Shown piece after piece: positions 1-10,914 of a stretch of 25,474 bases of DNA; the first letter of the stretch is position 1, and each line of letters begins with the position of its first letter. Position numbers and translations under genes: made by a program. The DNA comes from a virus: IMG/VR virus record IMGVR_UViG_3300027749_000452, positions 1-25,474 of that record, one strand, 5' to 3'. The notes below the pieces were generated by a model, which ran no database searches, was not told where the DNA came from, and saw nothing but the letters and a program-made list of their open reading frames with translations.

Positions 1-125
1 AGGTTCAGGTCAGCTGGAAGCTCTTCGTAGGCCTTCAGCAGGTGGATGACGATCTTGCTCACGGCTGGGGTGACCCTGGCCGCCTTCAGTTGCTCGGTGA
101 TCCACTCTCTTGGTAGCTCTGGCAT
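1..125 (-). CDS. Unknown phage protein, N-terminal part only
   Basis: The ATG at 125..123 opens a frame with no stop to the window edge, giving about 41 residues that begin MPELPREWITEQLKAA. The fragment is mostly helical-looking and charged, with no motif I recognise. Its ATG shares one base with the TAA of the preceding gene (TAATG), the same coupled arrangement seen at other junctions in this window, which is the main reason to believe it is a gene. It follows the NTP pyrophosphatase and the glycosyltransferase-like gene, so it may belong to the same functional group, but nothing in the visible part shows a function. Confidence 0.6.
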   Translation of the reverse strand, partial: MPELPREWITEQLKAARVTPAVSKIVIHLLKAYEELPADLN

Positions 126-625
126 TAGTTCTCCTCCGTGACTGCCGGTACTGTCTGTGGTCCGCACTTGACGCAGTGCGACGGCGCCAGCGGGTTTGCG
201 CCGACGTCGTCGATCGCGCGGGTGCACTGGACGCACTTGACGCCCTCGGCCTTCACGGCGTAGCCGGCCTCCTGGCGCTTGCGGTTCTTCTCCATCTTCT
301 GCAGGTAGAAGCGGTCCAGCTCCTCGTCGGTGCCGCCGCAGGCCACGATGATGTTGGCCACGAAGTGCAGCACGTCGACGGCCTCCTTGATGACCTCCTT
401 GCGGTCCGCGTACGGCTCGTCGGCCTGCCACGGCTTCCACGACAGCGGCTGGCGCATCTCGGCCAGCTCGTCGTCGATGGCGAGCATGTTCCAGCGGATG
501 TACTCGATGAGGTTGTTGATCTTCTCCGGGGCGTCGCCGGTCATGGCGTCGTAGTCGATCTTGTAGACGTTCTCTTGCAGGTCTCGAGTGCGCTTCAGCC
601 ACTCGTTGAACAGTGTGTTACTCAC
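125..625 (-). CDS. All-alpha NTP pyrophosphatase (dUTPase/dCTPase/MazG-like) with C-terminal zinc ribbon
   Basis: This 166-residue protein has the metal-binding pattern of all-alpha NTP pyrophosphatases: E53-x-x-E56 (DELAEM) and E81-x-x-D84 (KEAVDVLHF) on two helices. The family hydrolyses dUTP, dCTP or other (d)NTPs to the monophosphate and pyrophosphate. After the helical domain, Cys131, Cys134, Cys151 and Cys154 form a CxxC...CxxC zinc ribbon, which is an unusual addition. The start is GTG at 625, overlapping the TGA of the glycosyltransferase-like gene (GTGA), with GGAGAG about nine bases upstream. The substrate cannot be read from sequence. The dCMP-type synthase and dNMP kinase at 9062..10914 make a dCTP-removing role like T4 gp56 attractive, but dUTPase or general house-cleaning is equally compatible with the motifs. 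Confidence 0.8.
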   Translation of the reverse strand: MSNTLFNEWLKRTRDLQENVYKIDYDAMTGDAPEKINNLIEYIRWNMLAIDDELAEMRQPLSWKPWQADEPYADRKEVIKEAVDVLHFVANIIVACGGTDEELDRFYLQKMEKNRKRQEAGYAVKAEGVKCVQCTRAIDDVGANPLAPSHCVKCGPQTVPAVTEEN

Positions 626-1659
626 TTGCTGGTCTCTCCAATGTTTATGTTTAGTATCTGCTGCAGCTCCACCGCCGAGTCTTTGACGGTTGAGATGCTG
701 CCCGCGTAGGCGTCGCGCTGCGCCGCCGCCAACTCCGCGCGTTCCTGCTGGCTCATAGCTTCAATACTAGCAGCCAGGTGGGTCCAGGAGTCTCCAAGAC
801 GCACCGTGTCTTGCCAGTAGCTCGCCACCGGCACCTTGGCGACCAGGGCCATCGCGTAGTACGGCGACCACCAGGTTCCGCCCGGCTTCTGCGGCGAGAC
901 CATGACCCCGACGGCCAGGCTGAGCTGCCCGCGTATCTGGGCGTCGGTCCACCCCTTGTGCCACTTCAGCGGGGCGACCTGGGTGTTTAGGGTCGCCATG
1001 GTTGACTTGGACCAGGCTGTTTTAGGCGCGTCAACAAGCCACCGGTTGCCCGTAGGAGCCTCGGTGGCGCCCTGGTCAGCCAGTATTAGGCTGTCCAGGT
1101 TCACGGGCTCCAGACGGCCTCTGGCGCCCTCTGGGAGCATCTTTTCCAGGTCTGCAGTCAGGTTGTTCCAGGGCAGCTCCGGGTACAGGGTAACCGGCCA
1201 CTTTGGGTCCTGCAGGAGTGCCCGGCAGGCACCCCAGACGTAGGTCATCAGCTCGGCGCTCTTGTTTACGACGGCGTACCCGCGGCGGGCGGAGTAGAAC
1301 GACTTGAATAGCGTGTGCTCGTTTATCACCGCGGTCTGCAGCGAGGTCTGGATCTGCCCAGCGTCCGGCGCGTCAAAGAACAGGCGCAGTCTCGGGTCGT
1401 CAAACAGCAGGTGGATCAGCTTCAGTGCGCCGTAGGCGTAGTTGGCGCTGAGGCTGGTGACGGGGGCGATTCCCACGATTATTGAGTCGTACTGCGACAG
1501 GTGCTCGGCGTCCCAGTCGAGCGAGGCGGGCGTCCAGTCTACCGAGTGCCCCCGCAACTCCAGGGACCGCTTCAGCAGCCCCGCGAAGTTTGTGTTTCGA
1601 CTCCCCAGTCTAGCCGAGGCCTGCGGACTGGTCATCCCAGTCAAAAGAACTTTTTTCAT
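622..1659 (-). CDS. Probable GT-B-fold glycosyltransferase, possibly DNA base glucosyltransferase-like
   Basis: The protein has 345 residues. The N-terminal half looks like a Rossmann domain: a beta strand KKVLLTGM, then a helix in the region NFAGLLKRSLELRGHSVDW, strand YDSIIVG (58-64), and strand LRLFFDAP (91-98). The C-terminal half has the usual GT-B donor-site layout: a strand AVGVMVSP (249-256), a Trp-rich loop GGTWWSPYYAMAL (260-272), strand VPVASYW (276-282), then helices with MSQQERAELAAAQRDAY. This order resembles T4 beta-glucosyltransferase as I remember it, including its length (about 351 residues), but the identity is clearly low. The start is ATG 1659 with AAGGAAG upstream; a strong hairpin lies just before it. 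Alternative: a glycosyltransferase acting on another acceptor, or another two-domain Rossmann protein. Confidence 0.55.
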   Translation of the reverse strand: MKKVLLTGMTSPQASARLGSRNTNFAGLLKRSLELRGHSVDWTPASLDWDAEHLSQYDSIIVGIAPVTSLSANYAYGALKLIHLLFDDPRLRLFFDAPDAGQIQTSLQTAVINEHTLFKSFYSARRGYAVVNKSAELMTYVWGACRALLQDPKWPVTLYPELPWNNLTADLEKMLPEGARGRLEPVNLDSLILADQGATEAPTGNRWLVDAPKTAWSKSTMATLNTQVAPLKWHKGWTDAQIRGQLSLAVGVMVSPQKPGGTWWSPYYAMALVAKVPVASYWQDTVRLGDSWTHLAASIEAMSQQERAELAAAQRDAYAGSISTVKDSAVELQQILNINIGETSK

Positions 1660-1682
1660 GTCTCTGCTTCCTTGTGATAGTG

Positions 1683-1718
1683 GTGTGGGGCACCGCTATT
1701 GCTAGCGATGCCCCACAC
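1683..1718 (-). promoter_or_regulatory. Long GNRA-capped RNA hairpin between the SSB-like and glycosyltransferase-like genes
   Basis: In the minus-strand RNA, GUGUGGGGCA and UGCCCCACAC pair perfectly, followed by a U-G wobble, then CGCUA with UAGCG around a GCAA tetraloop. The result is a 16-bp stem with a GNRA loop. It begins 14 bases after the SSB-like stop and ends 23 bases before the ATG at 1659, just above the ribosome site. No U-run follows, so a classical intrinsic terminator is unlikely. An mRNA-stabilising element, a processing site, a partial terminator or a protein-binding site would fit better. Confidence 0.75.
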
Positions 1719-1732
1719 TGGTTGGCGCGCGT

Positions 1733-2281
1733 TTAGAACGGAGCGTCAGGCAACGTTGACGTTGCCGGTGCTGGAGCCGGTGCTGGAGCCGGTGCTGGAG
1801 CCGGCGCTGGAGCCGGTGCTGGAGCCGGCGCTGGAGCAGCGGCGGCAACTGGAGCGGTGGCGGTGTTGCTGCCGGCGAGAACGTAGTACTTCTTGATCTC
1901 GTTGCGCTTTTCACCCTGCCAGACGCGAGAGCCAATCTGGCCGCGGAACGTGCGGTTTAGGATGGCTGACTCAATCTGGGCGTTGCTTGGGTTGGTGGTG
2001 AAGTACTCGCGGTTTAGGCCGAGAGCCGCCATCTTGCCAAAGAAGATCCCCAGCGCGCTGGCGTTCTCCGGTGAGACCACCAGGTTGTCCCAGACGCGGC
2101 GCTTAGCGTGCGCACCGACCTGGACCTCGGTGGTGATCTTGAACATGGTCTTTCCAGACGCAGACACGGTGGCCTTTGCCTCGATTACCTTTAGCTCGTA
2201 GTCACCGTCAGGCAGTGGCTCGTAGCTGTTTGCGCCTTCTCCGGCGTCTTTTACTAGGTCGCCCCAGTTGAGTGAACTCAT
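1733..2281 (-). CDS. Single-stranded DNA-binding-like protein (DUF669-type) with Ala-Pro linker
   Basis: The 182-residue protein has an N-terminal beta-rich domain (about 1-140) of the type found next to phage Sak4/RecA-like ATPases: PLPDGDYELKVIEAKA, then FKITTEVQVG, RRVWDNLVVSP and a helical stretch ALGIFFGKMAALGLN. The tail is a low-complexity Ala-Pro linker (about 147-174) followed by the tip TSTLPDAPF, which recalls the acidic, Pro-Phe-ending tip of bacterial SSB that recruits partner proteins. The likely role is coating single-stranded DNA during replication or recombination together with the next two genes. ATG 2281 is preceded by AAGGAGAACGA. The assignment rests on pattern and neighbours; the family name is tentative. 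Confidence 0.7.
   Translation of the reverse strand: MSSLNWGDLVKDAGEGANSYEPLPDGDYELKVIEAKATVSASGKTMFKITTEVQVGAHAKRRVWDNLVVSPENASALGIFFGKMAALGLNREYFTTNPSNAQIESAILNRTFRGQIGSRVWQGEKRNEIKKYYVLAGSNTATAPVAAAAPAPAPAPAPAPAPAPAPAPAPAPATSTLPDAPF
1765..1836 (-). repeat. Six tandem 12-bp units encoding the Ala-Pro linker
   Basis: On the plus strand the unit is CCGGTGCTGGAG or CCGGCGCTGGAG, repeated six times without interruption. Units differ only at one T/C position (1, 2, 3 and 5 carry T; 4 and 6 carry C). On the coding strand each unit adds Ala-Pro-Ala-Pro to the SSB-like protein. Such a tract can gain or lose units by replication slippage while keeping the reading frame. Confidence 0.95.
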
Positions 2282-2328
2282 AGTTCGTTCTCCTTGTTTC
2301 GTTGTGGTGATCGTCTAACCGGGATTGG

Positions 2329-3096
2329 CTAGGACGACTTCTTGGTTGCGGCTGCCTCGACCTTTTGGCCGAAGATCATGTCGAGCATGCGCTCGATTCC
2401 CAGGTCTCCCTGCTCTACAACGCCGCCGAGGCGACCCTGTACGCGCTCTCCCGCCTCAAAGCGGTCGTTGCGCTCAACGTGCATGCGACGAACGCGGTAC
2501 GCTGGCTGGGTTGGGTCTGGGTTGGGCACTGTCTCGATGTCCAGGTAGCCCAGGACGTCGTAGAAGTACGGGGCCTGCACCGCTAGTTGACCCTGCAGGT
2601 ACGGGCGCAGGCGCCCGTCTTTGTCGGCCTTTGCCATCGCGGTCAGCACTACGGCTTCAAGCGGGGCGGTCGGGTGCATGGTCAGGTCGCGCAGGTCGCG
2701 CAGCAGCGCGCCCATGTGGCGAAGTAGCTCGCCCCACTGCTGCATCTGCATCTGGTTCTTGCCGGCAATCTGGTCCATGCACTTCACCTGGAGCTCCGAG
2801 ATGGAGTCAATGATGAGGGACTTGAACTGGTGCTTGCCCAGCTGTAGCCACTGAAACGCCTTGATGACCACGTCGTAGTCGCGAACGTTTACCACGCAGG
2901 TGTCCCAGGTGCCGTCGGCAACCGGCGGCTCCTCGCGTAGTGGGTCCCAGTACTTGACGTTTATCGGAAGGAAGCGGTGGCCGCCCTCGACGTCGAGCAT
3001 GAGACGTGGGTATGGAGCGGTGACTGCAAGGGTGGACTTACCAACCTTTGACTCGCCGTAGACCATCATGGTCAAGCTGCGTTGTACGTCAGACAT
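2329..3096 (-). CDS. Sak4-like RecA-fold ATPase (recombination mediator/annealing partner)
   Basis: The 255-residue protein has an early Walker A motif GESKVGKS (14-21) and a Walker B strand SLIID (93-97), then a sensor-like strand EAVVLTAMAK (148-156). This compact single-domain RecA core without the DNA-binding additions of RecA is typical of phage Sak4/AAA_24 proteins, which work with a single-strand-binding protein in recombination-dependent replication. The gene sits between a Cas4-like nuclease and an SSB-like protein, the usual setting. Its ATG (3096) shares one base with the TAA of the nuclease gene (TAATG), so the two are translationally coupled. Confidence 0.8.
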   Translation of the reverse strand: MSDVQRSLTMMVYGESKVGKSTLAVTAPYPRLMLDVEGGHRFLPINVKYWDPLREEPPVADGTWDTCVVNVRDYDVVIKAFQWLQLGKHQFKSLIIDSISELQVKCMDQIAGKNQMQMQQWGELLRHMGALLRDLRDLTMHPTAPLEAVVLTAMAKADKDGRLRPYLQGQLAVQAPYFYDVLGYLDIETVPNPDPTQPAYRVRRMHVERNDRFEAGERVQGRLGGVVEQGDLGIERMLDMIFGQKVEAAATKKSS

Positions 3097-4028
3097 TACT
3101 CTGTTCCTTTCTTCTCTTCTTCGTTGTAATAACCGTACGGGTTACCTACCACGTACAGCTGCTCAATGGCTGCCTCTACCGCGCTGCCGTCGTCGATCAT
3201 CGGGCAGATGTTGTAGAACTGGCACTTCCATTTGCAGTCTCTTGACGGACTCGGGTAGGCAATCACCTGGTGCTCTTCCCCCTCGTCCAGGGCCTCCTTG
3301 ACGCGCATCATGTCGGCGATGGTGCCGTGCAGGCGCTTCCAGAAGGACCTCAGTGTAAATACGTTGTGGCGGACCTCGATCTGCTGGTAGAACGGTGGTC
3401 GCGCGTTTGCGGTGCGCTTGACCTTCTTCAGCAGGGTAAAGATGCCGCCCTCCGAGCGCTCGCCGTCCTTGTTCTGGGCAGACTCCAGCAGCATGTACGT
3501 CAGGATCTGCTCGTTCATCTGGGCGGTGGTCTCAAAGTCCGAGAAGCTCGCGGCCGTCTTGAAGTCTCTAAACATTCTCACGCCGTCGCCCTTGCGGCGA
3601 ACGCGCATGTCCAGCTTGCCCTGGAGCTCGACCTTGCCGTCCATCAGTGGCATGCGGATGATCTCCTCGGTAGAGATCATGTCCAGCTCGGCGTCGATGC
3701 CGTTTTCCTCCACCCAGTCGAGGTAGCCCTCGAGCATGATGCGGCCAAGTTCCGCCTCTGAGTCTAGCTCTGAGGTGTCGGAAAAGTCCGCGATCAGGAG
3801 CGCGCGGTCCTTCTCGACCAGCTGGGCGTGCGCCTCTAGCAGCGGGATCTCGGTTGAGTAGTACATGTCGAGCGCCTCGTGGATGCGCGAGCCCAGCGCC
3901 AGCGCGCCTGTCTTGGTCTGCTCGCGCGGCTTGAGGCGACGGTAGTAGTTGAGCCACCACTTGCGGCGGCAGTCCTTGAACACCTGGATCTCCGAGTTGG
4001 AGACCTGGTATGGTGTCACTTCAGTCAT
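3096..4028 (-). CDS. Cas4/RecB-like PD-(D/E)XK exonuclease with iron-sulfur cysteines
   Basis: The 310-residue protein shows the Cas4/AddB-type layout: Cys20 in a helix (FKDCRRKWW), GSRIHEAL with His50, the catalytic GKLDMRVRR (Asp140) and RDFKT (Asp155, Lys157), the Gln motif MNEQILTYML, and a C-terminal cluster Cys265, Cys269, Cys275 (CKWKCQFYNIC). The four cysteines would hold a 4Fe-4S cluster that ties the two ends together. The expected activity is resection of DNA ends to make single strands for the Sak4 and SSB-like proteins encoded next. ATG 4028 has a near-ideal ribosome site, AAGGAGAGACAA. There is no Cas1 or CRISPR array here, so a CRISPR adaptation role is not suggested. Confidence 0.85.
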   Translation of the reverse strand: MTEVTPYQVSNSEIQVFKDCRRKWWLNYYRRLKPREQTKTGALALGSRIHEALDMYYSTEIPLLEAHAQLVEKDRALLIADFSDTSELDSEAELGRIMLEGYLDWVEENGIDAELDMISTEEIIRMPLMDGKVELQGKLDMRVRRKGDGVRMFRDFKTAASFSDFETTAQMNEQILTYMLLESAQNKDGERSEGGIFTLLKKVKRTANARPPFYQQIEVRHNVFTLRSFWKRLHGTIADMMRVKEALDEGEEHQVIAYPSPSRDCKWKCQFYNICPMIDDGSAVEAAIEQLYVVGNPYGYYNEEEKKGTE

Positions 4029-4038
4029 TTGTCTCTCC

Positions 4039-4119
4039 TTAGTTGAGTATCTCTATTATGTCCTGTACTGGCGACATTTGGAGCTGTTTTGCTAAAAATT
4101 CTTCAGTAAGTCTAAAAAC
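4039..4119 (-). other. AT-rich spacer that is open in frame with the helicase after its stop
   Basis: Directly after the helicase TAA (4122..4120), 26 sense codons follow in the same frame before a second TAA at 4041..4039. They read VFRLTEEFLAKQLQMSPV and on to IEILN. The stretch is strikingly AT-rich compared with the genes around it. It contains an in-frame ATG that could start a 12-residue peptide, but I see no ribosome site for it. It may be a former helicase C-terminus cut by a new stop, a read-through tail, or chance. A 6-bp inverted repeat (GTAAGT/ACTTAC) overlaps the helicase stop and is too weak to call a terminator. Confidence 0.4.
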
Positions 4120-5931
4120 TTACAGTTTTCCAGCCTTGTCGTCCTTCAGCAGGGCCAGGAGCTTGTCTTTGTCCCTGACTATCTGCTCGAAGTTGTCGGC
4201 CTTTGTGTCCAGTACCTGGAGCACGCGCTCCTCCACGGTTCCCTCGGTGACGTAGTCCAGGACCACGACTGAGTCGTGAATCTCGGACCCGATGCGGTGG
4301 ATGCGGTCCAGCGCCTGCTTGTGGTCCACCAGTGACCACGGGCGCTGAAGCATGACCAGCCGTCGCGCGGCGGTCAGGGTGATGCCCACGCCGCCGGCCT
4401 GCGCCGTGAACAGGATCCACTTGGTCTTGCCGCTCTGGAAGTTGTCGACCGCCTGCTGGCGCTCGTCCTCGTTCTGCGCTCCGGTGATGAGGCCGTGCTC
4501 GATGCCCTCCTTGGTCAGGCGGGCACTGAGCAGGTCGATGAGCTGGCGCGAGACGGCGCAGACCGCGACCGAGTCGCCGCCAAAGTCTCCGCTCTTGATG
4601 TCGTCCATCAGGGCGTCGACCTTGCACGACGGCTCGGCCAGCACGGTCTTGATCTCGCCGGTGGCCTCGTCGACCACGCTCTCGGCAAACGAGCTGGCAA
4701 ACTGCAGCAGTCTGGTCGTCTGGGTCAGGGCGCTCGACGCCACCAGGGCGTCTCCGTTCTCGAGCTCGGCGATCATGTTGTCGCGCATCTGCTCGTAGGC
4801 CTTCTTCTGCTTGGTGGACATCTCGATGTCGCGGCGCTCAAACATCATCTCCGGCAGCCACGGCAGCACCCTGGCCTTCAGCATGCGGCGCATTCTCGGG
4901 TTGATGGCCGCGTGGAACTCCTGCTCCATCTGCGGCTTGACCCCCATGACCATGAGTCCGCCAAAGGCGTTCAGCATGGTGTCGATCATGCGCTCCATCC
5001 AGCGGGTCTTGCTCGGCCACTCCTCCGGGCTCAGCCAGTGCAGGATCGCCCACAGGTCCATCACGTCGTTGGCGATGGGGGTTCCGGTCAGGGCAAAGCG
5101 GTACCTTGCGTCTCCGGTGGCCGCCCACAGCGCGCGGGTCTGCTTGCTCTTCGGGTCCTTGGAGCGGTGGATCTCGTCGGCTATGACCGTCTTGAACTCG
5201 ATGTCGTTTAGCTCGCGCTTGTGCACCTCGCAGCGTCCCTCGGTCACCTTCTCGTCGTGGCCGCCGCACTCGGAGCAGCGGGCCAGGGCGATGGAGCCGT
5301 ACGAGCCAAGGCGAGAGTGCGTGCGCAGCGACTCCCAGTTGATGGCGTAGACGTGGATGCCTTCTTCCTCAAACTGCTTGCGGCGCTGCGCGGCGGAGCC
5401 CTTGATGACCTGGACCTTTATGCCCGGCCACCACTTGGCAAACTCGCGCTGCCAGTTCTTCTTCAGGGTGTTTGGACAGACCACCAGCGCCGGAAACACG
5501 GCCTCGCCGCGGCTCTGCAGCTCGGCCAGGGCCCGGATGGCCTGGGCGGTCTTGCCCAGTCCCGGCTCGTCGGCCAGTAGCGCGCGCTCGGCGGTGGCTA
5601 GAAACTTTACCCCGGCGCGCTGGTGCGGGAACAGGTCCTGGAAGCCCTCGCCGTCGGGCAGGGTCTCCAGGTCGCGAAGTTCGTTTGCGGGGTTTACGCG
5701 CCTGGCCAGCTCGTCTACCGCCCACTGGGCCAGGCGCGGTCCGATCTGCAGGTCGGTGCGAAAGGTCGAGCGGAGCGCCAGGCAGCCGGCCCAGGAGACC
5801 GGTAGGCGCCAGACGTTGTCCTTGGCGGCCCAGGTCGCGCCCGGGATGCTCTTGCACAGCTCCTTGAAGCGCCAGTCAGTGGTTATGAGGATGTGGGTGC
5901 CGGCTTCGTCCAGCTCTACGCTTACTTGCAT
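4120..5931 (-). CDS. SNF2-family DNA helicase/translocase
   Basis: Taking the second in-frame Met (MQVSVELDEAG) as start gives 603 residues; the ATG at 5931 follows AAGAGAGACGAACAAC, whereas the Met 33 bases upstream at 5964 lacks a good site. The N-terminal 60 residues (WAAKDNVWRLPVSW) resemble the HARP-like domain of annealing helicases. Then come LFPHQRAGVKF, Walker A DEPGLGKT (121-128), a DEIH box, LTGTPIAND, and the C-terminal lobe with TAQAGGVGITL and ALDRIHRIGS. A small cysteine/histidine insertion (CSECGG and CEVH) lies before the DEIH box and may bind zinc. The role is probably fork remodelling or strand annealing in phage replication. It is followed by an AT-rich spacer before the nuclease gene. 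Confidence 0.88.
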   Translation of the reverse strand: MQVSVELDEAGTHILITTDWRFKELCKSIPGATWAAKDNVWRLPVSWAGCLALRSTFRTDLQIGPRLAQWAVDELARRVNPANELRDLETLPDGEGFQDLFPHQRAGVKFLATAERALLADEPGLGKTAQAIRALAELQSRGEAVFPALVVCPNTLKKNWQREFAKWWPGIKVQVIKGSAAQRRKQFEEEGIHVYAINWESLRTHSRLGSYGSIALARCSECGGHDEKVTEGRCEVHKRELNDIEFKTVIADEIHRSKDPKSKQTRALWAATGDARYRFALTGTPIANDVMDLWAILHWLSPEEWPSKTRWMERMIDTMLNAFGGLMVMGVKPQMEQEFHAAINPRMRRMLKARVLPWLPEMMFERRDIEMSTKQKKAYEQMRDNMIAELENGDALVASSALTQTTRLLQFASSFAESVVDEATGEIKTVLAEPSCKVDALMDDIKSGDFGGDSVAVCAVSRQLIDLLSARLTKEGIEHGLITGAQNEDERQQAVDNFQSGKTKWILFTAQAGGVGITLTAARRLVMLQRPWSLVDHKQALDRIHRIGSEIHDSVVVLDYVTEGTVEERVLQVLDTKADNFEQIVRDKDKLLALLKDDKAGKL

Positions 5932-5962
5932 GTTGTTCGTCTCTCTTGGTCGTTGTGTGTAC

Positions 5963-5992
5963 ATACTAGCACAATTTTTGCGCCAGCGTCAT
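5963..5992 (-). promoter_or_regulatory. Candidate promoter upstream of the helicase gene
   Basis: The 86-base gap between the resolvase stop and the helicase ATG holds, on the minus strand, ATGACG (5992..5987), an 18-base spacer, and TGC-TAGTAT (5971..5963), which is an extended -10-like element. Start of transcription would fall about 25 bases before the helicase ATG. Each hexamer matches the sigma-70-type consensus at four of six positions, so this is suggestive only. The gap is AT-rich compared with its surroundings. Confidence 0.3.
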
Positions 5993-6017
5993 AGTTGTCC
6001 AGTATGTTGCTGTCTCA

Positions 6018-6485
6018 CTAGTCCAGTAGGCGTCTGGGAACCCAGCCGCTCTTTACCAGCCGGAGCAGCCCGTGGCGTATTGCATCCAGGGCGTGTCCCT
6101 CACCGCCTCTGTGCCAGTACTCCAGCTTCTTCAGCTTGTCGTTTGGAAAGACCGCCTTCGCGTCGGCCGGGGCCTGGAAGTAGATGTCGTCCGCCGCGCG
6201 ACCGGCGTCCATGAGACACTGCTTCAGGATCCCGATCTGCTCCAGCGAGTAGGGGGCCTGGGCGTTCTTGGCGGTCTGGGCGTTGATGGTAAAGCGCTCG
6301 CAGGCGACCTCCAGCGGCACGCCGGTCAGGCTCGACAGCTGCAGCGCCGCGCGGACCGGTCCGGCAAACTCGTGCTGCTGCACCTCCATCGACCACATGA
6401 GGTCCGGCTCTCCGCCGGCCTCGTACTCGAAGAGGGCCAGTCCGGTGGCCTTGCCCGGGTCCACCGCCAGTATCAGTCTGGTCAT
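6018..6485 (-). CDS. RuvC-like Holliday junction resolvase (RNase H fold)
   Basis: This 155-residue protein starts MTRLILAVDPGKATGLALF, the first strand of the RuvC/RNase H fold with Asp9. Glu63 lies in the second core strand (EVACERF), and the C-terminal helix GHALDAIRH carries His131 and Asp134, completing the metal-binding set. It would cut branched DNA made during replication and recombination before packaging. The ATG at 6485 shares a base with the polymerase TAA (TAATG). A longer reading with an N-terminal extension up to 6761 would lie inside the polymerase gene and gives an Arg/Gly-rich out-of-frame sequence, so I reject it. Confidence 0.85.
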   Translation of the reverse strand: MTRLILAVDPGKATGLALFEYEAGGEPDLMWSMEVQQHEFAGPVRAALQLSSLTGVPLEVACERFTINAQTAKNAQAPYSLEQIGILKQCLMDAGRAADDIYFQAPADAKAVFPNDKLKKLEYWHRGGEGHALDAIRHGLLRLVKSGWVPRRLLD

Positions 6486-8305
6486 TAGTACTTGTCTCCC
6501 CACGTCTCCAGTGGTCCGTCGATGCCCGAGGTGAGCGGGATTGCCCAGCCCTCGGTGGTGGTCATGCACTCCTTGACGGTCCGCATGATCTCCTCCACGT
6601 CGCCTCGCGGCGCGTTGAGGACTATTTCGTCGTGCACCGGCACGATGAGCAGGTCGGTCAGGTCCGCCTGGTCCAGCTTGATGAGGTTGTTCTTGAAGAC
6701 CTCGGCGGCTCCGCCCTGCACCAGGTAGTTCACCAGCGAGTAGACGCGGTCCTCGTCGCACGGCAGCCTCCTGCCGGTCCAGGTGTTCACGTAGCCCTGG
6801 CCCTCGGAGCGGAGGCGGCGCATGCCGATGTCTTCTACCTGCTTCTGGAACAGCGCCATGCCGGGGAAGCGCAGGTCAAACGCGTCGGACACCGCCTGCA
6901 TCTGCGCCTTCGGCACGCCGGCGGTGAGCGCCTGCTTCTCGACCCCCGCGCCGTACAGGCGTCCGTAGACCACTCCCTTGATGAGTCCGCGGCGCTTGTC
7001 GGAGCGCTGCATGGTCGGGTCCTGGTAGATCTCGCGACCGATCTCGGTGAACGGGTCGGAGCCGGTGGCGTCGGCCAGGTTGAACAGCGAGATGAGGTTT
7101 GGGTCCTGCGACAGCGAGGAGAACATGCGAAACTCCACCTGGTCGAGGTCGGAGGTCACGATGACGTGGTCCTCGTCCTTTGGGATGAAGGCGCGGCGAA
7201 CGGTGTCGTCGCCCTTCGGCAGGGTCTGCAGCGCCGGGTTGGTGATGGACATGCGGCCGGTGCGCGCGCCCATGGTCTTGACTGACGGGTGCACGAAGCC
7301 GTTGACGTTGTCGGTCAGGAAGTTCTTGAAGTAGGTGTTGGCCAGCTTGTCCGCCTTGCGCTGCTTCAGCACGATGTCGGCCAGCTGCCGCACCTCCGGG
7401 CGCTCGTCTAGCAGGAACATGGACAGCTGGTCCTTGTTGACCGCCTTCATGCCGGACGCCGTCACTTCGGTGATCTCCGCGCCCATGCGCTCAAACTCGC
7501 GAACTAGCTGGATGTTGCTGGTGATGCCGAGGCCGTTGTAGTTGGCCCTGGCCCAGTCCTTGACCTGCTCGCCGTAGGCGCTCAGCTCGTCAAACTTCTT
7601 CTTCGAGTACTCCAGGTCGATGCGCGCGCCGTTTAGCTCCATGCGGGTCACCACCTTGCGGGCGGCCATCTCCAGGTCGTAGGCTCGGCTGTACTGCTTG
7701 CCCGGCGCGCACTGCTCCCAGAACTTTTCCCACAGGCGCATGGTGATGACCGTGTCCAGCGCGCCGTACGCCCAGTACGGCTGAAAGTTTGTCGGCACGG
7801 TTCCCCAGGTCCAGCCGTTCTCGGCCAGCGACGCGTCGAGCGTCGCCTGCAGGGCGGCGGAGCGGCCGTCGATGTGCAGCGAGGCCAGGCGCTTCAGTGC
7901 CCCGGATCCCAGCGGGTCGATGAGCTGGGCCATGATCATGGTGTCGTGGGCCTTGTGCCACGGCATGCGCCAGCGGGACTGCACCTCGAACCACTTTGCC
8001 TCGAAGGCGATGTTGTGGCAGACGATGGGTCCGTCGTAGCGCTCCATGGCCTGGTAGAACACGCCGGCCCACTCGTCCCACGGGATCGCCCAGCCGTGCA
8101 TGCCGTCTCCGACCTGGACCAGGCGGATGCGACCGTGCCACGGCGACAGCGCGTGGTCTCTGGGATTGCCCGGCAGCTCGCCGGTCTCGATGTCCACCGA
8201 GACGGCGTCGTAGGGGCGGCGCTCTCCCAGCCAGGTTAGGAATCGTTCGGCCTGTTCGACGCTGTCGACTAGGTCCAGCTGGACGTCGTTCATGCTTCCG
8301 GTCAT
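6485..8305 (-). CDS. polA: Family A DNA polymerase (PolA-type, exonuclease plus polymerase domains)
   Basis: From ATG 8305 the protein has 606 residues. The 3'-5' exonuclease domain shows VDIETG (Asp38, Glu40), HNIAFE (97-102) and YGALD (Tyr180, Asp184). The polymerase domain shows motif A DLDQVEFR (386-393), motif B KRRGLIKGVVYGRLYG with Lys443 and Tyr447, and motif C VPVHDEIV (Asp559). There is no 5' nuclease domain. Two details stand out: Exo II has Glu102 where Asp is usual, and motif B has Tyr447 at the position of E. coli Phe762, as in T7 polymerase. The start ATG overlaps the deaminase TGA (ATGA); a second Met four codons later (8293) is possible. Replication of the phage genome is the expected role. 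Confidence 0.93.
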   Translation of the reverse strand: MTGSMNDVQLDLVDSVEQAERFLTWLGERRPYDAVSVDIETGELPGNPRDHALSPWHGRIRLVQVGDGMHGWAIPWDEWAGVFYQAMERYDGPIVCHNIAFEAKWFEVQSRWRMPWHKAHDTMIMAQLIDPLGSGALKRLASLHIDGRSAALQATLDASLAENGWTWGTVPTNFQPYWAYGALDTVITMRLWEKFWEQCAPGKQYSRAYDLEMAARKVVTRMELNGARIDLEYSKKKFDELSAYGEQVKDWARANYNGLGITSNIQLVREFERMGAEITEVTASGMKAVNKDQLSMFLLDERPEVRQLADIVLKQRKADKLANTYFKNFLTDNVNGFVHPSVKTMGARTGRMSITNPALQTLPKGDDTVRRAFIPKDEDHVIVTSDLDQVEFRMFSSLSQDPNLISLFNLADATGSDPFTEIGREIYQDPTMQRSDKRRGLIKGVVYGRLYGAGVEKQALTAGVPKAQMQAVSDAFDLRFPGMALFQKQVEDIGMRRLRSEGQGYVNTWTGRRLPCDEDRVYSLVNYLVQGGAAEVFKNNLIKLDQADLTDLLIVPVHDEIVLNAPRGDVEEIMRTVKECMTTTEGWAIPLTSGIDGPLETWGDKY

Positions 8306-8805
8306 TTGTCTGTCTCGTCTCTGTTGATGGTCAGCACCTCTAGGCCGCAGTCTCGCAGGTAGCTCAGGGCCACCTCGGGGGTGCGGTGCTGGTCGGCCTC
8401 TCCAATCATAGCGACTACTCTGGACAACCCGGAGTTGGAGATCAGCTTGGCGCACTGCATGCAGGGTGGGGCGGTCACGTAGATGGTCCCTCGGAGGACC
8501 TGGGAGCGGTCTACGTACAGAAGCGCGTTTGCCTCAGCGTGGATGCTCGGGCAGCCGTCGTAGGCCCCAGAGAGCCCCGTGGTGCCCCTTGCGCGCTCGC
8601 ACCAGTTGATGCAGTCGCCCTCGCCCCTGAAGGTCGCAGCGGGTCCGTTGTAGCCCGTCGCGCTGATGCGCTGCTCGTGGCTCACGACCACCGCGCCCAT
8701 GCTGGCCCGGGTGCAGCGAGAGCGCAGGCTGACGGCGTGCGCCACCTGCATCCACACCTCGTCCCAGGAGGGCCTAGTAGAGGTCTTGCGGTCCGTTCCA
8801 GTCAT
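8302..8805 (-). CDS. dCMP deaminase
   Basis: The 167-residue protein has the cytidine/deoxycytidylate deaminase zinc site: His89-Ala-Glu91 (IHAEAN) and Pro-Cys115-x-x-Cys118 (PPCMQC), plus the GYNGPA substrate-loop motif (51-56) typical of dCMP deaminases. It converts dCMP to dUMP, supplying the substrate for thymidylate synthesis. The ATG lies inside the preceding acidic ORF, a 32-base overlap; a later start would remove the first helix, so I keep this one. In T4 the same enzyme sits beside dCMP hydroxymethylase and competes for dCMP, and here the Asp180-type synthase is two genes upstream. Confidence 0.92.
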   Translation of the reverse strand: MTGTDRKTSTRPSWDEVWMQVAHAVSLRSRCTRASMGAVVVSHEQRISATGYNGPAATFRGEGDCINWCERARGTTGLSGAYDGCPSIHAEANALLYVDRSQVLRGTIYVTAPPCMQCAKLISNSGLSRVVAMIGEADQHRTPEVALSYLRDCGLEVLTINRDETDK

Positions 8806-9061
8806 CGTCGTCGTCCTCGTCGTTGTTGTAGTTGTCGTTGTTTCCCAGCAGGTCTCCCACCGGAGTGTACTGGATCATGGTGGACAGCATCCCCGTGACC
8901 ATGGTGATGGCCTCGGGAGGGGTGAACCCAGCGCGCTTCAGCGACTCGTACACCTCGTTGAGCTGCACGGTCATGGAGTCTAGGACGCTCATTACCTGCT
9001 CGTTTAGGATGCCGGTCGGGTCCTCGGGGTCCTCGCCTCTGCCGTTGTTGTTCTCTAGCAC
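8774..9061 (-). CDS. Small acidic protein of unknown function
   Basis: This 95-residue protein starts at GTG 9061, directly after the TAA of the synthase gene (TAAGTG). It has a helical middle (EQVMSVLDSMTVQLNEVYESLKRAGF), a segment PPEAITMVTGMLSTMI, and an acidic tail NDEDDDDDWNG. Its last 32 bases overlap the dCMP deaminase start. I recognise no family. The small size, acidic tail and position in the nucleotide cluster are compatible with a regulatory or adaptor protein, but that is a guess. Confidence 0.7.
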   Translation of the reverse strand: MLENNNGRGEDPEDPTGILNEQVMSVLDSMTVQLNEVYESLKRAGFTPPEAITMVTGMLSTMIQYTPVGDLLGNNDNYNNDEDDDDDWNGPQDLY

Positions 9062-9916
9062 TTACTGCTTGCCGGCGTTCTTCTCAACCGCCTTGGCCAT
9101 CGCGTCGCGGTACCAGCGGGCCTCTGGAGACAGCTTCTCCGCCAGCGGCGTTTCCCTGACCGCCTGCAGCGCGGCGAGCGCCTGGACGCTGACGTCCAGC
9201 CAGTCTCTTCCGGTGATGGCTGGCACGTCGACGTAGCTGTCGGTGTACTTCAGCTTGTTTGCCACCTCGTAGTGTTGCTCGTAGATGTGCAGGGAGCCCA
9301 CGTGGTGCACGTAGCTTCCGACGCCGACGCCCAACACCGAGGCCAGCGCGATCTGCACGCGGGTGAACTGAAAGAAGTCGTAGGCCGCTCCCAGCCAGAC
9401 GTCGTTGGAGCGCATGTACACACTCATGTTCAGCTTGTTGTCGCGAATGCGAAACTGCATCAGCGTGGTGCAAGGGTAGTCCTTCTTGCCCGGCAGGAGA
9501 TCCAGCTCCGGGTTCCAGATGACCACCTGCGCCTGCCGGCTGTCCGGGTCGGCCTTTAGTCGTTCAACGATGACCGCAAACTGGCCGTCGGTGCGGGCAC
9601 CGTACGCGCCGTGAAAGGTGACGCCGTCGTCGTTGGTGTAGGCGCTAAACTGGGGAGCGACCTCCAGCAGCAGTCTCGGGGTCGAGACCCCGGCGAGCAG
9701 CTGCATGGCCTCGACGGCCCCGATGCCGGGGACGGTGCCGCGACCCACGTTTAGCGGCAGCGCGTTTGTAGGGTCGGCGATGCGAACCACTGCGTCCTCG
9801 ATCTCGCGGGTCTTCTGCCCGCGCGGCGCGGTCTCCCTGCCGTGCTCCAGCACGTGCCTGACCAGGTCAACGTAGCCGTTGACGCCGTCCTTGATGTTGA
9901 TTACTGCAGAATCCAC
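9062..9916 (-). CDS. Thymidylate-synthase-family enzyme, predicted dCMP-type (hydroxymethylase or methylase)
   Basis: The 284-residue protein aligns by eye with thymidylate synthase: YG (105-106), DPDSR (123-127), catalytic Cys149 (YPCTT), RSNDVWLG (169-176) and LHIY (209-212, His210 and Tyr212). At position 180, in LGAAYD, it has Asp where E. coli ThyA has Asn177 (LPFN). That Asn reads the dUMP base. T4 dCMP hydroxymethylase has Asp179 and Cys148, the same spacing of 31. The C-terminus (EKNAGKQ) lacks the PVAI-like end that closes the synthase active site. The predicted reaction is transfer of a one-carbon group from methylene-tetrahydrofolate to C5 of dCMP. GTG 9916 follows AAGGACGAGAA and overlaps the kinase end by 16 bases. 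An ordinary thymidylate synthase with an unusual residue remains possible. Confidence 0.8.
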   Translation of the reverse strand: MDSAVINIKDGVNGYVDLVRHVLEHGRETAPRGQKTREIEDAVVRIADPTNALPLNVGRGTVPGIGAVEAMQLLAGVSTPRLLLEVAPQFSAYTNDDGVTFHGAYGARTDGQFAVIVERLKADPDSRQAQVVIWNPELDLLPGKKDYPCTTLMQFRIRDNKLNMSVYMRSNDVWLGAAYDFFQFTRVQIALASVLGVGVGSYVHHVGSLHIYEQHYEVANKLKYTDSYVDVPAITGRDWLDVSVQALAALQAVRETPLAEKLSPEARWYRDAMAKAVEKNAGKQ

Positions 9917-10914
9917 TTCTCGTCCTTACTGTCGATCTTCTTACTTATTCTAGCAATGGCCTTGCCGTACTGACCTTTTCTCTTGTTGAAGAAGCGGCGC
10001 ACGAACTGCGGGTGCGGCAGCACCGCGTAGTCGACGTACTCCTTCAGCCCGAGCTTCACCAGCGCCTTCTCGGCCTCGCGGCCCAGGGCCACGATGGTCG
10101 GGTTGCCCAGCTCGGTCCACAGGGACACAAAGGTCTCCGGGGACTCGTTGGCGTTCACTATGCCGACCTCGCGCCAGAAGTTGTCGCGCAGGCTGGACAT
10201 GAGGTAGTTGCCGGAGTTGCCGTCAACGGGGATGAACGGGAGCTTGGTGCTGCTGCCGTACCACGGCTTGCTCGGGCGCTCGTCGCCGACCAGCAGGACC
10301 TTTGGGTTCGCGCCGCCCAGGTAGTGCTTGTACGGGCGCAGGCCCTCGACGCCGCGGGCGGTCAGCTCGGCCCAGTCGACCATCTCCTTGGCGGTCTGCT
10401 GCAGGTCGTCTAGGCTGCTGGCCTTCGGCTTCAGCTTGACGCTGGTAAACGAGTTTCTGTAGGCCTTGCGGCAGAGCTTTAGGATCTTGCCCAGCTCGTT
10501 GACCTTGACGTAGTCGTCGCCCCGCTCGAGCAGGCGCTTCTTGATGACGCCTAGCGGCTGGTAGAGCCAGAAGTGCGCGACGCCGCGGGAGGCCAGGAAC
10601 AGCTCGGTCCAGCGCCAGCCGGCCTCGCCGAGCAGGCCGAAGCCGTCCTTGTCGGTGTGCGGGCGCTTTAGCGGGGCGTAGGTGGCCTCGCCCCAGTGCC
10701 AGCGGTCGGCGATGATGATGTCCTCGTCTAGGTCGATGTCCTCGACGGACAGGACGTAGTCCTTGATGACCCAGCGGCGGGTCTCCTCCTCCGGGCGCGA
10801 CTTGTGCAGGAGGTGGATCTTGCGGTCTGGGTAGCGGCGCTTGGCCTCGGCGCGCACGGCCTCTATCAGGGTGCTCTTGCCGGAGGCGTCGGTGCCCTCG
10901 ATGATGATGAACAT
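9901..10914 (-). CDS. Deoxynucleoside monophosphate kinase fused to a uracil-DNA-glycosylase-like domain
   Basis: Residues 1 to about 190 form a thymidylate-kinase-like P-loop kinase: MFIIIEGTDASGKSTL with Walker A 6-15, the ADRWHWGEATY motif (69-79) and a lid-like LLERGDD (128-134). Residues about 203-325 look like a UDG-superfamily domain: KVLLVGDERPSKPW (205-218), strand IVALG (274-278), and LPHPQFVRRFFNKRKGQY (299-316), where HPQ takes the place of the HPS-type motif. The kinase would phosphorylate a deoxynucleoside monophosphate; T4 gp1 does this for hydroxymethyl-dCMP. The glycosylase-like half may only bind bases. ATG 10914 follows AGAGAGACGAGACAC. The next gene is the dCMP-type synthase, overlapping by 16 bases, so the two are coupled. 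Confidence 0.75.
   Translation of the reverse strand: MFIIIEGTDASGKSTLIEAVRAEAKRRYPDRKIHLLHKSRPEEETRRWVIKDYVLSVEDIDLDEDIIIADRWHWGEATYAPLKRPHTDKDGFGLLGEAGWRWTELFLASRGVAHFWLYQPLGVIKKRLLERGDDYVKVNELGKILKLCRKAYRNSFTSVKLKPKASSLDDLQQTAKEMVDWAELTARGVEGLRPYKHYLGGANPKVLLVGDERPSKPWYGSSTKLPFIPVDGNSGNYLMSSLRDNFWREVGIVNANESPETFVSLWTELGNPTIVALGREAEKALVKLGLKEYVDYAVLPHPQFVRRFFNKRKGQYGKAIARISKKIDSKDEKWILQ

Follow-up and report, generated by a model that had tools for sequence, protein, structure and literature searches.

The window analysed here, a stretch of 25,474 nucleotides that represents a fragment of a siphovirus genome, encodes a set of enzymes by which the phage probably replaces dC in its DNA by a glycosylated 5-hydroxymethylcytosine (5hmC); we put the probability of this reading at about 0.65. 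The five genes on which a preliminary description had based a T4-like cytosine route are all present and lie in a single leftward run. Their order is identical in the IMG/VR relatives retrieved with the synthase and in the actinophage DSL-LC01. Because this order is kept in relatives and Asp180 of the synthase is invariant (80 of 80 metagenomic relatives in the alignment), the arrangement is not due to chance. The window belongs to a large actinobacteriophage lineage, in which its relatives are DSL-LC01 and the Gordonia phages Sixama, GMA2, and Phendrix.

The disguise of cytosine against bacterial defences is known, and so is the idea of such a gene set, since equivalents occur in cultured Gordonia phages and in Microbacterium phage Cheeto1. 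The present case concerns a little-studied actinobacterial virus lineage with a distinct family of sugar-transfer enzymes. If the reading is true, cytosine hypermodification would not be confined to T4 relatives but would belong, encoded in an operon, to the core traits of a large actinobacterial phage lineage. The lineage would offer a new DNA glycosyltransferase family, in one-enzyme and two-enzyme versions, for DNA-sugar studies, as well as material for studying the evasion of actinobacterial restriction and type IV defences, and "thymidylate synthase" annotations in its phages would probably be wrong. As it includes culturable Gordonia phages, of which isolates exist, the reading is directly testable.

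The synthase, the kinase, and the replication genes

The synthase gene (9062..9916, on the minus strand like all other features given below) encodes a member of the thymidylate synthase (TS) superfamily (Pfam, 3.5e-26), whose best match in the PDB is the CMP 5-hydroxymethylase MilA (E 6.7e-26). As the preliminary description had noticed, an Asp occupies the position of the dUMP-recognizing Asn. This residue, Asp180 (codon at 9377..9379), aligns with Asp179 of T4 gp42 and Asn177 of E. coli TS and is the predicted determinant of cytosine specificity. The motif Asp146-Tyr-Pro-Cys149 (9470..9481) contains the catalytic Cys and a hydroxymethylase-specific Asp. In the alignment Asp146 corresponds to Asp145 of T4 gp42, which is a water-activating residue absent from TS (PMC6400193), and the position is occupied by Leu in E. 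coli TS and by Glu in RB69-type enzymes. Beyond Asp180, the residues Asp146, Cys149, Thr150, and Met168 complete the hydroxymethylase signature, which is also found in GMA2, Sixama, and Phendrix. Eleven residues (E69, Y105, R127, D146, C149, T150, M168, S170, D172, G176, and D180) are identical in T4 gp42 and invariant in 80/80 relatives. The TS-fold active site is kept, as C149, E69, Y105, R127, R169, H210, and Y212 align with both T4 gp42 and E. coli TS, and the C-terminal segment of TS is absent, as in T4 gp42. S170 and R127 represent the Ser/Arg pair of deoxyribose-type enzymes, as opposed to the Ala/Lys of MilA (rule from PMC5175136). In the MetaGPA study, D177 and a residue other than H147 (E. 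coli numbers) were the top two residues associated with modified-cytosine contigs (PMC8670742). Sequence comparison thus supports the prediction that the synthase is a dCMP-hydroxymethylase-type enzyme.

The gene at 9901..10914 encodes the dNMP kinase fusion noted earlier, in which a P-loop dNMP-type kinase domain (PHROG thymidylate kinase, 3e-14) is followed by a separate C-terminal domain. In the AF2 model (mean pLDDT 90.8), the nearest solved structure to the kinase is YorR (3kb2, E 1.5e-7), followed by TMPKs. Its proposed equivalence to T4 gp1 had to be abandoned, as the hhalign probability is 0.4% and there is no homology beyond the P-loop. We propose that it is a putative 5hmdCMP/dTMP kinase. 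The C-terminal domain gives a weak uracil-DNA-glycosylase (UDG)-superfamily signal, with E<0.1 for 11 of the 33 members. The dCMP deaminase (8302..8805) was recognized correctly in the preliminary description (PHROG 2.2e-40, Pfam 2.1e-18). A small ORF between synthase and deaminase (8774..9061) has matches of 39-44% identity in some relatives and no Pfam match.

The deaminase gene is followed by a family A DNA polymerase with a 3'-5' exonuclease-like domain (6485..8305, start at 8305; Pfam 1.3e-50) and by a RuvC-like resolvase (6018..6485) of the replication/recombination context, with 55% identity to that of DSL-LC01. Further context genes encode an SNF2-type helicase (4120..5964; Pfam 2.5e-41), a PD-(D/E)XK exonuclease (3096..4028; Pfam 5.9e-21), and a Sak4-like RecA-family annealing protein (2329..3096; PHROG 6.8e-34). 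A DUF669 ssDNA-binding protein (1733..2281; Pfam 5.7e-7, PHROG ssDNA binding 2e-11) borders the sugar island. A defence island was considered and rejected, because the PADLOC matches on the SNF2 helicase and the PD-DEXK protein are generic. An Rfam search of the window gave no match, and phages near-identical to the window were not found.

The glycosyltransferase island and the proposed route

The pyrophosphatase at the 3' end of the run (125..625) belongs to the all-alpha NTP pyrophosphatases of the dCTPase/dUTPase-like kind (Pfam dUTPase_2, 1.2e-11) and carries Cys pairs at its C-terminal end. The earlier assignment to all-alpha NTP pyrophosphatases is therefore correct, and the protein is homologous to T4 gp56 (hhalign 97.3%, E 2.1e-11, 34% identity over 94 columns). 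Its family also includes plain dUTPases, which counts against the preferred reading.

The neighbouring gene (622..1659) encodes GTx, the proposed DNA 5hmC glycosyltransferase. Sequence searches of the PDB, Pfam, PHROGs, and NCBIfam gave nothing useful, so that its assignment to the GT-B fold rests on structure prediction. The AF2 model, like that of the kinase built from an alignment of the window and IMG/VR rows, is a confident GT-B fold (mean pLDDT 92.3). The GT-B-like protein of the preliminary description is thereby confirmed, as one that belongs to no Pfam or PHROG family. The top Foldseek matches in the PDB are the RB69-type (HY126) glycosyltransferase structures 9iqz and 9ir0 (9iqz, E 3.4e-4), and T4 AGT (1xv5) is among the top five with a probability of 1.00; TM-scores are modest (0.38-0.52). 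With hhalign there is no detectable homology to T4 AGT, BGT, or RB69 ORF003c (0.9%, 1.7%, and 0.1%, with a single sequence on the compared side each time). "T4-like", as the preliminary description had it, therefore means analogous in the case of the glycosyltransferase, for the similarity to T4 AGT is one of fold and does not extend to the sequence of AGT or BGT. Because GTx shares no sequence with known DNA glycosyltransferases and its TM-scores are modest, DNA as the acceptor is something we infer.

The linkage of synthase and glycosyltransferase is not due to chance. A GTx/GT1 or G_54 glycosyltransferase gene lies beyond the ssDNA-binding gene in all 53 synthase-anchored loci that have at least 700 bp there (46 by direct match to GTx/GT1 and seven of the G_54 family). 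In the opposite direction, the pyrophosphatase is present in 73/73 glycosyltransferase-anchored loci with room for it, and the synthase in 16 of 17; the 17th (L099) begins at the deaminase. In relatives with room, GTx lies between the ssDNA-binding and gp56-like genes. The sampled relatives gave no case of GTx apart from the synthase, and a search of plasmids gave no match to it. Most relatives have two tandem glycosyltransferases, whereas the window has one. The gap between the ssDNA-binding gene and GTx contains a perfect 16-bp hairpin (1683..1718), of which the structure is conserved but not the sequence (z<-3 in 56/56 distinct gaps, mean z -6.5). The parts of the pathway had been described as spread among the replication genes, a detail that needs correction. 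The kinase, synthase, and deaminase open the replication run, and a conserved island at its 3' end, compact and with the hairpin at its border, holds the glycosyltransferase(s) and the pyrophosphatase.

From these genes we infer the following route. The gp56-like pyrophosphatase would remove dCTP (and dUTP), yielding dCMP (and dUMP). The TS-superfamily enzyme would then hydroxymethylate dCMP at C5 with methylene-tetrahydrofolate, using Cys149, Asp180, and Asp146, while the dCMP deaminase may divert spare dCMP to dUMP for dTMP synthesis. The YorR/TMPK-like kinase would produce 5hmdCDP, host kinases would complete 5hmdCTP, and the phage family A polymerase would incorporate it. Finally GTx, whose gene adjoins those of the ssDNA-binding protein and the pyrophosphatase, would glycosylate 5hmC in DNA, and the modified DNA may escape restriction. 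The two tandem enzymes of relatives may build a disaccharide or a mixed decoration, of which the window phage would have a simpler form. The route may be less than complete, and so may the replacement of dC. In 33 of 35 relatives a divergent C5-cytosine methylase (PF00145), with the catalytic Cys and Glu retained, is encoded a short way downstream. It counts against the reading, as a C5-methylase would have little to do with C5 filled at every cytosine.

Alternative explanations

It is also conceivable, if rather unlikely, that 5hmC is made in DNA while the targets of GTx and its paralogues are virion proteins or glycans of the host surface, the 5hmC being bare or otherwise capped. A non-DNA acceptor is supported by the lack of a sequence link between GTx and DNA glycosyltransferases, and glycosylation of virion proteins is reported for mycobacteriophages in work cited by PMC12619734. 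In DSL-LC01 a UDP-galactopyranose mutase adjoins the glycosyltransferases, and those who described the phage tied this enzyme to the cell wall (PMC10611076). This explanation sits poorly with the place of GTx between the ssDNA-binding and gp56-like genes, with its absence elsewhere than near the synthase in the sample, and with its nearest solved folds, which include T4 AGT and the RB69-type phage glycosyltransferase. In RB69-type phages a TS-superfamily enzyme makes 5-hydroxy-dCMP, which is then arabinosylated (PMC13390438), and in Shewanella phage Thanatos, which has a dCTP pyrophosphatase, a dCMP deaminase, and a TS homologue, a pentose is bound directly to cytosine and not to hmC (PMC12838424). 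A 5-hydroxy-dCMP synthase with the sugar on the base oxygen would agree with the finding that, among solved structures, the RB69-type glycosyltransferase is closest in fold to GTx. The residues at T4 positions 145/171/175 make it very unlikely. In the window and its relatives, which fall outside the RB69 clade, these residues are D/D/G, as in T4 gp42, MilA, and Xp15; E/N/V, a signature derived from four sequences, is common to RB69, Ac42, Proteus phage phiP4-3, and Rhizobium phage I46.

Less probable still is a dCMP 5-methyltransferase, an enzyme that phage Xp12 reportedly possesses, which would give 5mC DNA; this and the 5-hydroxy-dCMP synthase were judged by residue signature only. The change of Asn to Asp by itself turns TS into a dCMP methylase, according to literature cited in PMC8670742. 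However, Asp146, Thr150, and Met168 are those of hydroxymethylases and not of TS, the missing C-terminal segment matches T4 gp42, and the adjoining glycosyltransferase would be left without an acceptor. The least probable explanation is ordinary nucleotide supply, with TS, dCMP deaminase, dUTPase, and TMP kinase raising dTTP and an unrelated glycosyltransferase nearby. Deaminase, dUTPase, and TMP kinase are indeed also a standard set for dTTP supply, and the records of relatives are annotated in this way. Yet all relatives have Asp in place of the Asn that gives uracil specificity, in an active site that is otherwise of the hydroxymethylase type. In GMA2, moreover, a separately encoded ThyX makes the TS homologue dispensable for dTMP synthesis. 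Plain dTMP supply was rejected on the Asp/Asp signature and this ThyX.

Related systems

The proposed route to glycosylated 5hmC resembles the T4 glucosyl-5hmC pathway in the catalytic residues of the synthase, the homologous all-alpha dCTPase/dUTPase, the dCMP deaminase, a monophosphate kinase, and a GT-B glycosyltransferase. To this extent the T4-like cytosine route of the preliminary description stands, while a gp1-type kinase and homology to AGT/BGT do not form part of it. Unlike in T4, the kinase is of the YorR/TMPK family and fused to a UDG-like domain, and the phage is a siphovirus with a family A polymerase and a compact operon in a different order, in which a single glycosyltransferase family is represented by one gene or by two in tandem.

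Sixama, GMA2, Phendrix, and DSL-LC01 share the gene set of the window and the residues of its synthase. They also agree with it in the pyrophosphatase, in a C5-cytosine methylase close by, and in having homologues of GTx, and they are clearly of one lineage with it. In the Gordonia phages a greater distance separates the glycosyltransferase genes from the kinase/synthase block, a third glycosyltransferase family (G_54) occurs, and the kinase aligns with only the N-terminal half of the window fusion. DSL-LC01 differs in its extra UDP-galactopyranose mutase, which lies between two glycosyltransferases. A more far-reaching reading joins 5hmC DNA throughout the lineage, much of which, though widespread, is known from metagenomes only, with a new DNA glycosyltransferase family acting singly or as tandem paralogue pairs, a sugar new to DNA, and a C5-methylase-like enzyme in hypermodification and not in plain methylation. 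In this combination it is improbable. The mutase is the basis for thinking of a furanose such as galactofuranose; a literature search for galactofuranose on DNA found nothing relevant, and DNA chemistry for any member of the lineage, including the Gordonia phages and DSL-LC01, was not found in the literature searched.

The arabinosyl-5-hydroxy-dC pathway of Mosigvirus (RB69) is alike in its TS-superfamily synthase, a nearby gene annotated as thymidylate kinase, and the GT-B fold, and RB69 has two glycosyltransferases. It differs in the E/N/V of its synthase, and its arabinose-supply genes were not seen in the window. Cheeto1 (Ilzatvirus) is likewise actinobacterial, and its genes for a D-type synthase, a glycosyltransferase, a kinase, and a MazG-like pyrophosphatase lie together, but its glycosyltransferase is a TAGT (PF20691) without sequence relation to GTx and its synthase is very divergent. 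The Xp15-type pathway to 5-carbamoyloxymethyl-dC, known from MetaGPA, shares the siphovirus-size genome, the D-type synthase, and the dCMP deaminase, whereas its capping enzyme is a carbamoyltransferase and not a glycosyltransferase (PMC8670742).

Gene order and lineage

The window is the entire IMG/VR record (25,474 bases, 65% G+C) and is probably a genome fragment. Its left half is a leftward replication run, and its right half carries structural genes with PHROG matches to tape-measure and minor-tail proteins. The five route genes that the preliminary description had claimed were all found. The phage collection searched held no close relative; among named records the nearest is Actinomycetia phage DSL-LC01, an assembly from a lake metagenome with Actinomycetia as predicted host (PMC10611076), and the Gordonia phages GMA2, Sixama, Phendrix, and GodonK come next. 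The gene order of DSL-LC01 is that of the window, starting with the kinase fusion, thymidylate synthase (TS) homologue, dCMP deaminase, polymerase A, RuvC, helicase, PD-DEXK, and RecA-like genes, and ending with the DUF669-position gene, a glycosyltransferase, UDP-galactopyranose mutase, the homologue of the window glycosyltransferase (GTx), and MazG/dUTPase. This order is kept, within the reach of each contig, in 80 IMG/VR relatives recovered with the synthase as query.

Synthase and nucleotide enzymes

The best solved match of the synthase (9062-9916, minus strand) is the CMP 5-hydroxymethylase MilA, which outranks every thymidylate synthase. Aligned residue by residue with T4 gp42, E. coli ThyA, SPO1 gp29, and MilA, the window synthase shows Cys149, Glu69, and Tyr105, and its Asp180 occupies the position of T4 D179 and ThyA N177. 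Asp146, Thr150, and Met168 correspond to T4 D145, T149, and M167 (L143, H147, and Q165 in ThyA), and Ser170/Arg127 are of the deoxyribose type; all of these are invariant in 80/80 relatives. T4 D145 activates the water that ends up as the hydroxyl (PMC6400193), and positions 177 and 147 (E. coli ThyA numbering) were the top two residues distinguishing modified-cytosine contigs in MetaGPA (PMC8670742). A recently described alternative is the 5-hydroxy-dCMP synthase of RB69-type phages (PMC13390438). However, at T4 positions 145/171/175 the enzymes of RB69, Ac42, Proteus phiP4-3, and Rhizobium I46 have E/N/V, whereas the window lineage has D/D/G, as do T4, MilA, Xp15, and phage G. Phylogenetically, the window synthase clusters with IMG/VR, DSL-LC01, and Gordonia enzymes (98/94), apart from T4 gp42 and the RB69 clade; deep in this tree, several branches are long or open. 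Five named actinophages each have a single PF00303 match. GMA2 encodes ThyX besides its TS homologue, which is thus dispensable for dTMP.

The preliminary description had proposed a T4-like route. The likeness holds at the synthase and pyrophosphatase steps by tested homology and at the deaminase step (8302-8805, minus strand) by family match only, whereas the kinase and glycosyltransferase are analogous and belong to other families. T4 gp56 was matched by the pyrophosphatase profile (125-625, minus strand) at a probability of 97.3%, the two being 34% identical across 94 columns, in a family that also includes dUTPases. For the kinase (model mean pLDDT 90.8), homology comparison rejected the T4 gp1 family, the nearest structures being YorR and thymidylate kinases. 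The C-terminal ~140 residues of the kinase fusion (9901-10914, minus strand) form a UDG-superfamily-like domain conserved throughout the lineage, its superfamily signal being weak and seen in 11/33 members. The polymerase A gene starts at position 8305, directly adjoining the stop codon of the deaminase gene.

Glycosyltransferases and the sugar island

None of the libraries searched named a family for GTx (622-1659, minus strand). An AlphaFold2 model built from 32 window and IMG/VR sequences (mean pLDDT 92.3) best matched the phage HY126 glycosyltransferase structures 9iqz (E 3.4e-4) and 9ir0, and T4 alpha-glucosyltransferase 1xv5 was in the top five (probability 1.00, TM 0.52). A full-length match (E 5e-249) links the HY126 chain to RB69 ORF003c, the candidate arabinosyltransferase (PMC6024577). 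Sequence homology of GTx to AGT, BGT, or ORF003c was not detectable. From the model and the solved-fold matches, GTx is thus predicted to be a GT-B glycosyltransferase leaning moderately towards DNA glycosyltransferases. That DNA is its acceptor we infer mainly from gene linkage.

Where at least 700 bases lie past the ssDNA-binding gene, 53/53 synthase-anchored loci have a glycosyltransferase-family gene there: 46 match the family of GTx and its tandem paralogue GT1 directly, 4 match the G_54 family directly, and 3 cluster with G_54. In an independent sample anchored on the glycosyltransferase, the pyrophosphatase was present in 73/73 loci long enough to show it, and 16/17 had the synthase, the 17th (L099) beginning at the deaminase. 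Linkage of synthase, glycosyltransferase, and pyrophosphatase is far above chance. A tandem pair of paralogous glycosyltransferases (roughly 403 and 340 residues) occurs in most relatives; only the shorter one is present in the window and in loci L006 and L053.

An alternative island (L050:18131-20657; also L056, L057, L071, and L026) replaces the tandem GTx-family pair with a G_54-family glycosyltransferase, after which come an APH-type phosphotransferase and, on contigs that extend far enough, a HAD hydrolase. In DSL-LC01, a UDP-galactopyranose mutase (L082:26324-27421; PF03275, 5e-30) is flanked by the two island glycosyltransferases. Its describers interpreted it as a cell-wall gene (PMC10611076), but this location suggests furanose-donor supply. 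The same phage has a tryptophan-halogenase homologue (L082:34222-35793; PF04820, 5.5e-50) adjoining a family-2 glycosyltransferase/TPR protein.

A perfect 16-bp hairpin (1683-1718, minus strand) separates the ssDNA-binding gene (1733-2281, minus strand) from GTx. A strong hairpin lies at this spot in 56/56 distinct relative gaps (mean z -6.5 relative to mononucleotide shuffles, with an average MFE of -33 kcal/mol); by the same measure, none was seen in the similarly sized RuvC-helicase gap (mean z -0.75). Structure is conserved but sequence is not, being mostly unrelated across 12 gaps inspected by eye, none of which has a U-tract directly after the hairpin. Rfam gave no match.

Predicted route

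The best-supported route is the classical scheme with a glycosylated, hydroxymethylated cytosine: dCTP would be removed, dCMP hydroxymethylated, the product phosphorylated and incorporated, and glycosylation would follow. Thanatos, with a dCTP pyrophosphatase, a dCMP deaminase, and a TS homologue, attaches a pentose directly to cytosine (PMC12838424) and is a precedent for such an inference chain failing in detail. The pathway class is already known, and culturable actinophages carry the same or parallel sets: the Gordonia phages have the window's gene set, and Microbacterium phage Cheeto1 has a parallel one, but with a TAGT glycosyltransferase. Interest lies in the lineage, the glycosyltransferase family without library assignment, the variation between one and two such enzymes, and a C5-methylase puzzle. 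Downstream of the pyrophosphatase, at a site that the window ends short of, 33/35 relatives have a divergent C5-cytosine methylase homologue (PF00145; for example L082:30375-31619 and L083:8464-9762). It retains the PCS motif (catalytic PC) and the Glu, and its motif I is unusual. Its presence is puzzling, as it adjoins a route expected to fill cytosine C5 already.
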